Of a DNA stretch of 42,826 nt, positions 1 through 26,967 are shown one piece after another. The stretch's first letter is position 1. Each line of letters begins with the position of its first letter. This stretch comes from Ignisphaera sp. (GTDB lineage Archaea > Thermoproteota > Thermoprotei_A > Sulfolobales > Ignisphaeraceae): contig JAPWTX010000013.1 of NCBI GenBank assembly GCA_028275825.1, positions 1 through 42,826 on the forward strand, given 5' to 3'. Below the pieces are notes generated by a model. That model did no database searches. It saw only the letters and a list, made by a program, of their open reading frames with translations, and was not told where the DNA came from. The position numbers and the translations under genes are program-made.

Positions 1-38
1 GTGCAGAACCCTCGCCATTCATGGCGGGGAGCCGTCAG
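1..38 (+). mobile_element. possible right end of an IS200/IS605-type (tnpB) element, edge of window
   Basis: A near-perfect hairpin (arms CCCTCGCCAT and ATGGCGGGG around a TC loop, positions 10-30) is followed by GGGGAGCCGTCAG. From memory, archaeal tnpB elements end in such a stem followed by a G-rich strand and GTCA; this part also forms the 3' end of the reRNA/omega RNA. The element body would lie left of the window. The stop codon of the next gene lies directly at the inner border. It could instead be a chance terminator-like hairpin. A similar stretch occurs on the minus strand at 11485-11610. Confidence 0.4.
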
Positions 39-11453: not shown

Positions 11454-11484
11454 TCAATTTAAATAAGGATTAAAACATACTAAT

Positions 11485-11610
11485 TTGACCCCCTCCCCTG
11501 AAGAGGCAAGAGCTCCTGCTAGAACAAGGAGGTTTGAAACCGCATCTCCTCACACTTCGGGGATTTAGCTCCAGGCTGGATCCCCCAGCTCATTACCCCT
11601 ACCGTCTAGG
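11485..11610 (-). mobile_element. structured, G/C-rich remnant resembling an IS200/IS605 right end or omega RNA
   Basis: On the minus strand this 126-base island is far richer in G/C than its surroundings and folds into consecutive hairpins: GGGGAT pairing with ATCCCC around a CCAG/CTGG inner stem, GGAG with CCTCC, and CTCCT with AGGAG. It ends in TTCAGGGGAGGGGGTCAAA, close to the TTCATGGCGGGGAGCCGTCAG at the left edge of the window. No tnpB reading frame accompanies it. The best guess is an orphan or internally deleted element; a stand-alone structured RNA is the alternative. It lies in the 418-base gap between the divergent B3/4 and MATE genes. Confidence 0.4.
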
Positions 11611-11754
11611 GCTCAGGGTTGTAAGTATGTTGTATGCTTTTCTATGTTAAAGACTTTATTCATTGTAAGCTGGGTAGCGCTTTGAAGGACATGAAGCAAA
11701 ACATGGACATGGCTAAACATAACATCCAAAGCCAAAGGCCTACCGTGTACCATG

Positions 11755-11770
11755 TTATAAAGTTTTTAAG
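11755..11770 (+). promoter_or_regulatory. TATA-like box of the MATE gene
   Basis: TTATAAAGTTTTTAAG lies 47-62 bases before the proposed ATT start at 11817. A start near 11785-11795 leaves about 25 bases of leader that contains the ribosome site GGGTGAG. Confidence 0.4.
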
Positions 11771-11816
11771 TGTAAACTTTGTATTAGATAATAATGCTGT
11801 GTAGGGTGAGCAAGAG

Positions 11817-21270: not shown

Positions 21271-21611
21271 AACAGCAACTTATAAACTTAACTCTAAGTC
21301 TTAAACATCAATGAAAATAAGTGTTACAAATAATTATGAAGACCGAAACAGCCCAAAAACAATTCAATTCATTGGCAAAGGCTTTGTCAAGGATTTGAAG
21401 TGATTTTTATGAATATTTCTTCTAAATACTTCTCAGTGTTATGATGTGTGCCGATGTTGTGCAAAGGTTTTAAAGTTTTGGAAATTATCAAGCTTTTGGT
21501 TATCGTCTATAAGTTTTGAAAAATGGTGCTTACACTAATTTTATGTGTTCTTTTTTGAGATCTCTTTTTATGGTTTTTAACTTTCTTAGCTAAGATTAGG
21601 TGCTGAGAGAC

Positions 21612-22691
21612 ATGGTTTTGGGATTAGATCTGGTTCCAGGCGTGTTGCCTGTTACTAGGGATGCTAGGCTGTGGAAGGCTATTGACAATGGTGTTCAATG
21701 TCTTGTATGTGAGAGGAGATGTGTTATTTTAGAGGGTAGGGTTGGTCTATGTGGTTCTTATAAGAATGTTGGTGGGGTGTTAAAGCATGTTGGGTATGGT
21801 AGGATTAGTGCTGTAGAAAGCAGACCTATAGAGATTAAACCTCTTTTTCACTATTGGCCTAATAGTACTGCTCTTACCTTCTCTACTTGGGGATGCAATT
21901 TTTATTGCCCTTGGTGTCAGAATCATCACTTAAGTTTTAGACCTCCAAGAGAAGATGATGAGCATATCCCTCCAGAGAACCTCTTCAGAATAGCTATTAG
22001 AACAGGTGATGAAGGTTTTAGTGCAAGTTTCAATGAACCTACAGTAAACTTTGACTATTTACTGGATCTAGCAGAGGTGATTAGGGGTAGTGGTCTCTAC
22101 CTAATGATTGTCACCAATGGGTATCAGACTCTAGAAGCAGTAAAAGCTCTTGTTGAAGTGGGTTATGATGGATGGAGCATTGATATCAAAGGGTGCCCAA
22201 AGATAAAGAAAGCCTTGCCAAACATAGATCATAGAATTGTGTATAGAAATGCCAAGGCTGTTCTGGACATGGGTGGACATGTGGAGATGGTTTACCTTGT
22301 AGTCACCAACACAAACGATTTTGATGAATGTGTAGAGTGGATTATAGATAATCATCTCAATATACTGGGGGAGAAAGTACCTCTACATGTGAACAGATAT
22401 TACCCTGCACATAAGTGGAGAGAACCAGTAACACCAATGGAGAAGCTCTTTGCAATTGCGCAGAGAGCTAAGAAAGAGGGGCTTGAATACATCTACATAG
22501 GGAACATCAATAACCCAGAACTAGAGTCTACAAAATGCCCAAAATGCGGCAAGATGCTGATATATAGGAGGTGGTACAGGGTATGGGAATTCAATCTAGA
22601 TAGGAATGGAGAGAAGTATAGGTGCCCTAAATGTGGTTATGAAGTACCTGTAAGAGGGAGGTATATACCATGGAAGCGACACATATTTTAA
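21612..22691 (+). CDS. amrS: AmmeMemoRadiSam-type radical SAM enzyme (AmrS/PflA-like)
   Basis: Radical S-adenosylmethionine protein of the COG1180 group. An N-terminal cysteine cluster CLVCERRCVILEGRVGLCG is followed by the [4Fe-4S]-SAM motif CNFYCPWC, the family stretch IEIKPLFHYWPNS, and EPTVNFDYLLDLAE. A C-terminal zinc ribbon uses CPKCGK and CPKCGY. ATG 21612 is chosen because GGTG lies 9 bases upstream; GTG 21600 is in frame. 359 residues. The usual partners Memo and AMMECR1 are not nearby, so its substrate is unknown; activation of a glycyl-radical or tRNA-related reaction are the known kinds of role in the superfamily. Confidence 0.87.
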   Translation: MVLGLDLVPGVLPVTRDARLWKAIDNGVQCLVCERRCVILEGRVGLCGSYKNVGGVLKHVGYGRISAVESRPIEIKPLFHYWPNSTALTFSTWGCNFYCPWCQNHHLSFRPPREDDEHIPPENLFRIAIRTGDEGFSASFNEPTVNFDYLLDLAEVIRGSGLYLMIVTNGYQTLEAVKALVEVGYDGWSIDIKGCPKIKKALPNIDHRIVYRNAKAVLDMGGHVEMVYLVVTNTNDFDECVEWIIDNHLNILGEKVPLHVNRYYPAHKWREPVTPMEKLFAIAQRAKKEGLEYIYIGNINNPELESTKCPKCGKMLIYRRWYRVWEFNLDRNGEKYRCPKCGYEVPVRGRYIPWKRHIF

Positions 22692-25975: not shown

Positions 25976-26208
25976 TTGTGCCTCTGTGTGTCATCCAATA
26001 ATGGGTTTGTGATGCGTTAATTTTTGTTAGCGAAAACAAGGATTAAGTTTATAGATATGCACAAAAAACTACAATTACTTTAAAATGGTGATCAGCTTCT
26101 CCATCGATATTCTTTTATAGGGTTATGCATATGAAGGGGAAGGATGGGTCTTAGTAATGCATCTAACTCCCTCCAACCTTAAAAACAAGGCTTTTAGTTG
26201 TAAAGGAG

Positions 26209-26967
26209 TCAGGTAATTGGTATTACTGCTCTCAGGTTTGGCATTACCTTGGCTTTTACTCCATAAACTATCTCTATAACCTCTTCATTCATAACTTCTT
26301 CGATTTTTCCCATGGCGTGCACCCTGCCATTGTTTAGAAAAATAGCTTTTTCTGCATATCTATAGGCTTGGGTTAGGTCGTGTAGAGACATCACTACTGT
26401 GAGCTTCTTCTCTTTTGAAAGCTTTGCTATGAGGTTGAGTATTGCTATCTGATACTTTATGTCTAGATTAGCTGTTGGTTCGTCTAAGAGGATTATGCGC
26501 GGTTCTGCAACAAGGGCTCTTGCTATGAGTATTCTCTGAAACTCTCCGCCACTTAGTTCCATGATATCTCTGTCAGCCAAGTGCTCTGCATCAACATATC
26601 TTAGATATTTCAGAACCAGCTCTATGTCTCTAGTCGTTGGCGCAAAGTCTATATGGGGCTTTCTGCCAGTCACTACAAAATCAATTACCTTCACACCTTG
26701 AACCATATTTATGTGCTGAGGTACGAAGCTCACAAGCTTTGCAGCTTCCTTTCTACCCATTTGGAGAACGTTTTTGGAGTCTATATATACAGATCCTTTA
26801 ACAGGCTTCAGAATACCGTCAATGGTTTTGAGTAGAGTTGTTTTTCCACTGCCGTTGGGACCCAGCACAGCCACAATCTCACCTTCATCTACATCCATCG
26901 ATATATCATCAAGCGCCTTAACACTATTGTACCTAACCTCAACTCCTTGGATCCTTATCAAGGCCAC
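26209..26967 (-). CDS. FecE/BtuD-type ABC transporter ATPase
   Basis: Cytoplasmic ATPase powering uptake of an iron complex, corrinoid or similar ligand. Walker A GPNGSGKTT, Q-loop FVPQH, signature LSGGEFQR, Walker B IILLDEPTANLD and the H-loop SLHD are all intact. 252 residues. The start is GTG and overlaps the permease stop by one base (TAGTG). It is the last gene of a four-gene minus-strand operon fmdE, binding protein, permease, ATPase. Confidence 0.93.
   Translation of the reverse strand: MALIRIQGVEVRYNSVKALDDISMDVDEGEIVAVLGPNGSGKTTLLKTIDGILKPVKGSVYIDSKNVLQMGRKEAAKLVSFVPQHINMVQGVKVIDFVVTGRKPHIDFAPTTRDIELVLKYLRYVDAEHLADRDIMELSGGEFQRILIARALVAEPRIILLDEPTANLDIKYQIAILNLIAKLSKEKKLTVVMSLHDLTQAYRYAEKAIFLNNGRVHAMGKIEEVMNEEVIEIVYGVKAKVMPNLRAVIPIT

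Follow-up and report, generated by a model that had tools for sequence, protein, structure and literature searches.

A probable fossil of an ISDka2-type IS200/IS605 right end upstream of a B3/4 gene in Ignisphaera, and the gene-less mini-elements of its genome

The locus and its features

The window, that is, the whole stretch of DNA that was analysed, comprises 42,826 nucleotides from the start of a contig of Ignisphaera sp. A sequence-only reading had described on its minus strand, at 11485-11610 between B3/4 and MATE genes, a structured RNA-like island that ends as IS605-type elements do and lacks a nearby tnpB, and had proposed for it either a decayed element or a domesticated guide-like RNA. 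An island was found at that site, although the element to which it belongs reaches beyond this interval, to about 11741. The features recognised in the window are the following:

1-38, plus strand: second right end, truncated where the contig begins (covariance model R1, 19.4 bits, E 5e-4, model positions 102-140)
11465-11484, minus strand: flank in guide position, upstream of the B3/4 gene (sequence past the right end)
11485-11622, minus strand: decayed ISDka2-type IS200/IS605 element, its omegaRNA/right-end region (model R1 and HAV2 homology)
11505-11663, minus strand: tnpB C-terminus relic, HAV2 orfB residues 365-419, overlapping the omegaRNA (tblastn)
11665-11741, minus strand: tnpA (Y1 transposase) scrap, HAV2 orfA residues 38-63 in two frames, adjoining the tnpB relic (tblastn and DNA)
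11754-11776, minus strand: possible eroded left end, TTTAC followed by a TATA-like stretch, not significant (similarity to TTTACAACTGAAAGCC)
26163-26204, minus strand: probable terminal-only remnant, in which a left-end palindrome is joined to the tail of a right end (R1 and by eye)

No tRNA was found in the window, and no Rfam family was matched in it at gathering scores, the two matches that fall in the island region being at chance level. The stated lack of a nearby tnpB stands, none having been found in the window, whose lone and weak PF07282 place (21600-22691) corresponds to a radical SAM protein.

Identity of the island

In an intact IS200/IS605 element, tnpA and tnpB lie between a left-end hairpin and a right end. 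The right-end transcript, which overlaps the 3' end of tnpB, is the omegaRNA scaffold, guiding TnpB to a site set by the flanking sequence.

The covariance model R1 was built from an alignment of 36 right ends from other loci, the window copy being kept out of its training. Positions 11485-11622 of the minus strand match it over its full length (68.2 bits, E 2.4e-17, model positions 1-140 of 140), and these 138 nt follow the consensus colinearly; the right end with its omegaRNA region, one of the parts by which an ISDka2-type element is recognised, is thus present in the window copy. In a DNA search, the island showed 72.3% identity (E 4e-9) to the ISDka2 right end in Hyperthermophilic Archaeal Virus 2 (HAV2), in a match that takes in the end of orfB (tnpB) and the sequence just past this gene. 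According to Pfam, the HAV2 orfB product is a TnpB (PF01385) and that of orfA a Y1 transposase (PF01797). The minus-strand end, TTCAGGGGAGGGGGTCAAA at 11484, has no other place in the window at up to three mismatches (0.02 expected). These results bear out the IS605-type end that had been proposed on this strand, and homologs of the island were found at the 3' ends of tnpB genes.

The structure attached to R1 consists of 43 pairs computed from the 36-sequence alignment, with 91.3% paired cells. Double-sided changes occur in 19 of its pairs, where shuffles gave 12.0 and slid controls 6-14, a count that leans towards this structure, which was derived from the same alignment. Taking into account that the family covaries and that the R1 match is full-length, the island is a homologue of a genuine omegaRNA, one whose structure covaries. 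The likeness to the left edge of the window also holds, the second right end at 1-38 being recognised by the same model. Around the probable terminal-only remnant, the R1 match extends over 26163-26271 and is weak (12.0 bits, E 0.054); the fusion at 26163-26204 resembles the core deletions described in Haloquadratum.

Decay of the element

Of tnpB, the window copy keeps only the last ~55 codons, aligned by tblastn at 39% over 57 columns with three in-frame stops (E 5e-4 in a 501-nt region, weakening to 0.037 when further sequences were searched together with it). The Y1 transposase gene is reduced to a 73-nt scrap in two frames, whose two adjacent pieces show 64% over 14 amino acids and 58% over 12 with HAV2 orfA; these pieces are short, and their protein-level E values were 0.0003-0.003 in a small search and 0.014-0.27 in another. 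At the DNA level, the scrap is 82.6% identical over 46 nt to a tnpA of the congener G002 (E 2e-7) and 71.6% identical over 74 columns to another tnpA, and its alignment with HAV2 tnpA scores 38, compared with 25 for the best of 500 mononucleotide shuffles. The left-end candidate differs from TTTACAACTGAAAGCC by five substitutions, and its alignment score was equalled by 13 of 500 shuffles.

Most probably, an old ISDka2-type element was inserted at this locus, which when whole would have had its left-end hairpin, tnpA, tnpB and right end. An internal deletion would later have removed the core that is now missing, so that a bit of tnpA borders on what is left of tnpB, its last ~55 codons. The reading frames have since been broken by stops and frame changes, and the RNA fold has been lost to drift. 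The relic would then be neither transcribed nor used.

The source would have been a full element rather than one of the gene-less mini-elements, ~270 bp long, that this genome contains, a decayed member of which the window copy might otherwise be. The latter origin would accord with the abundance of such elements, since 30 of the 36 own-genome copies examined contain their shared core, and with the best own-genome DNA match of the window copy, L008, which is a copy with the core. However, the window copy is among the six without a core and has in its place the tnpA scrap, in a stretch upstream of the relic that none of the 35 other own-genome copies tested shares, so that a mini-element origin is very improbable.

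Fold and surroundings of the window copy

The sequence-only reading had called the island structured, with three successive hairpins. The exact interval folds no better than its shuffles, of which 66 in 200 did equally well (z -0.46), its best fold differs from that of the family, and a longer interval reaches a z of only -1.50 (18 of 200 as good). For comparison, z was -6.22 for the intact HAV2 element, -5.99 for the mini-element L015 and 0.07 for the old copies L008 and L012. In an alignment fitted to the model, the window copy retains 34 of 37 countable pairs, five of them through double changes; random placement of its own substitutions would retain 32.4 (p 0.18), while retention lies above this null in some other old copies (L008, p 0.004; L166, p 0.009; L170, p 0.007). 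Thus, the family fold proper to a functional omegaRNA is missing from the window copy, even though most of its pairs could still form, and it takes the analogy with the family, which has a covarying structure, to draw the three hairpins at all.

The flank past the right end lies where a guide would. The first 17 nt of this would-be guide recur nowhere else in the assembly as an exact match; two places were found with two mismatches, and none in the backward control. The B3/4 gene itself is present in all 11 genomes of the genus. Across the 10 congeners, no R1 match lies within 5 kb of this gene, and the nearest one, in G001, is at 6 kb, in a search that scored up to 150 candidates per genome and that weak relics could escape. 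In the DNA upstream of B3/4 in G010, G002 and G006, blastn and tblastn gave no relic, only short chance matches. Within 1.5-kb flanks, a MATE gene accompanies B3/4 only in the genome of the window and in G010. Between the B3/4 and MATE genes of G010 sits a mechanosensitive-channel gene (L070:2194-3177); its homologue in the genome of the window is found on another contig (G000:C57:809-1420; 66% identity, query residues 119-323). It is likely that a rearrangement took place close to the relic.

These data bear on the proposal of domestication, according to which the island would be a solo guide RNA, used by a TnpB, or by a nuclease-dead relative, whose gene lies elsewhere, to act on a site that matches the flank. 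The right end and the length of the omegaRNA are intact, the 34 pairs are kept, the genome contains 17 PF07282 places above the cut-off, and a trans-acting TnpB could be missed in a draft assembly. Nevertheless, the fold is lost, pair retention does not exceed what chance gives for the copy's own substitutions, the guide has no exact second target in the assembly, and no congener has an R1 match near B3/4; domestication must be regarded as highly unlikely. The position of the island, upstream of B3/4 on the same strand, would suit a structured RNA of another kind, for instance a leader or a riboswitch of that gene; this reading is hardly credible in view of the strong homology to a transposon end, the same lack of R1 matches near B3/4 in the 10 congeners and Rfam matches at chance level only.

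The term decayed element fits what was found: homology to the orfB and right end of ISDka2, a tnpA scrap adjoining a stop-ridden tnpB C-terminus, and a lost fold. The refuting condition that the sequence-only reading had named, which includes a lack of covariation and of homologs next to tnpB, does not apply in that form, as the family covaries and its homologs stand at tnpB 3' ends. This copy is decayed, and the stretch is a relic of an omegaRNA and not a working one. We therefore consider with high confidence that the island is a genuine and old ISDka2-type IS200/IS605 right end, a fossil without function now and not a domesticated RNA, the present lack of function of the window copy being the most likely state.

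Search for intact transposon genes

In the genome of the window, no intact ISDka2-type tnpB was found: the matches of at least 47% identity cover only residues 342-420, and the remaining TnpB matches, at 27-28%, belong to other TnpB types. PF01385 has no match in this genome and, taking into account that HAV2 orfB matches this family, the search would probably have picked up any intact tnpB of the ISDka2 type. A Y1 transposase was likewise not found there, either with HAV2 tnpA or with PF01797. The assembly, a draft, is 98% complete and consists of 86 contigs, and it could therefore lack some repeats. Among the congeners, intact ISDka2-type tnpB genes are present in G001 (one) and G002 (two).

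The association of right ends with tnpB was surveyed at 89 places, taken from 80 of at least 112 stretches and from six viral ones, using a protein panel from one genome and HAV2 that may miss other TnpB types. A matching ORF of at least 150 amino acids was found near the right end in 17 places and a fragment in four; no tnpB was found in 43 places for which the DNA upstream extended for 1.5 kb or more, nor in 25 with less. Several of the 43 are, by eye, terminal-only fusions, and a left-end palindrome lies upstream in seven of them, in one case 2 kb away. Terminal-only fusions of this kind, a left-end hairpin with the GGAGGAGGTCAG tail, were recognised by eye in L178, L235, L238, L241, L245, L247 and others, from records of Desulfurococcales, Methanomethylicota and Archaeoglobales.

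Gene-less mini-elements

At least 47 R1 places exist in the genome of the window, where 150 of 478 first-look candidates were scored. With up to 150 candidates scored per genome, the congeners yielded 13 (G001), eight (G010), six (G002), five (G006), two (G003 and G009 each) and one (G005), and none in G004, G007 and G008. The copies examined were the best 36 of the 47 own-genome matches (38.4 bits or more), the 11 weaker ones being left aside. The 30 with the shared core before the omegaRNA, among them L080, L015 and L010, are the gene-less elements of ~270 bp. They have no transposase, possess IS605-type ends and occur in multiple copies, the traits by which PATEs are defined; this comparison concerns the mini-elements and not the window copy.

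Across the 36 copies, the core word GTGATGA, which we take to be a C-like box, is exact in 24 and within one change in 27, and GGCGATGAT, presumably a C'-like box, occurs with up to two changes at a fixed place in 29. A TATA-like word lies at -80 to -84 in 25 copies, and the left end at -101 to -132 in 24. The D boxes are inconsistent among the cores and, for one mini-element copy, Rfam archaeal sR models gave E values of 0.86 or more and other C/D models of 0.16 or more; judged on these motifs, the C/D-like reading of the core is a resemblance only. A conserved peptide was considered as well and is unlikely, the frame MSVKLFE... being open in many copies and shifted or stopped in others.

Two pairs of copies are nearly or partly identical. 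L086 and L154 share an identical 191-nt run, from just before the C-like box to 2 nt past the right end, with differing left ends and flanks, and between L010 and L085 identity reaches 96.3% over 270 nt. Such likeness suggests that copies have recently moved or undergone conversion; for L086 and L154, it suggests conversion or recombination, likewise recent.

Comparison with known systems

ISDka2 (HAV2, GU722197), which carries tnpA and tnpB, is homologous to the window copy in the right end, the tnpB C-terminus and a tnpA segment; unlike it, the window copy is deprived of nearly all of tnpA and tnpB, contains stops and has no clear left end. For a TnpB of Sulfolobus islandicus, published work assigns the TAM to the left end and the scaffold to the right end (PMC10640517). 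For the mini-elements, the closest known kind in the literature found is that of the PATEs of Haloquadratum walsbyi, which they resemble as transposase-free IS605 derivatives; PATEs are described there together with core-deleted IS605 remnants, transposase-free, some arising by core deletion, and terminal-only forms (PMC3119063). Many mini-elements have, ahead of the omegaRNA and at fixed spacing, a TATA-like word and C/D-like motifs, a module in which they may differ from PATEs.

Two Rfam families touch these right ends. The HAV2 right end scores 44.3 bits with HgcC (RF00062) and 47.2 bits with sot0042 (RF02656), whose gathering scores are 50 and 88, respectively, and all right-end matches lie below both. 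HgcC also matches several mini-element right ends below its gathering score; the best right-end score, 48.0 bits, is that of L020:1344-1477 (minus strand), where a TnpB frame of 388 aa ends. Neither family matches the window copy itself. In its genome, HgcC has at least 30 matches at E of 0.001 or less (62 of 217 candidates scored). Overall, 17 of 41 genomes have HgcC matches, in none of the 41 above the cut-off; of 14 control genomes, three have matches, one of them above the cut-off. A tnpB-like match accompanies eight of 20 HgcC loci, in seven cases in an ORF of ~190 amino acids or more.

In Thermococcus kodakarensis, five of seven HgcC RNAs are reported to be expressed, three of them from transposase genes and two not (PMC4247193), and a 2017 paper calls the function of HgcC still unresolved (PMC5732400). 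Our literature search found no paper joining HgcC to TnpB, which is not proof of absence.

A tentative and rather doubtful possibility is that the ~270-bp elements are self-transcribed solo omegaRNA genes, with a left-end promoter and, replacing the tnpB message, a C/D-like 5' module that putatively binds L7Ae, providing guides in trans for a TnpB encoded elsewhere or by viruses; HgcC RNAs would be the same, TnpB omegaRNAs, some of them solo. The window copy, the fossil of a known type of element, matters little in itself, and the mini-element setting and the possible identity of HgcC matter more. Some thirty omegaRNA mini-elements of one design, for which no cognate tnpA or tnpB was found, raise the question of whether TnpB guide RNAs can live as separate parasites, and the match of HgcC to TnpB right ends offers a concrete and testable identity for this archaeal RNA.
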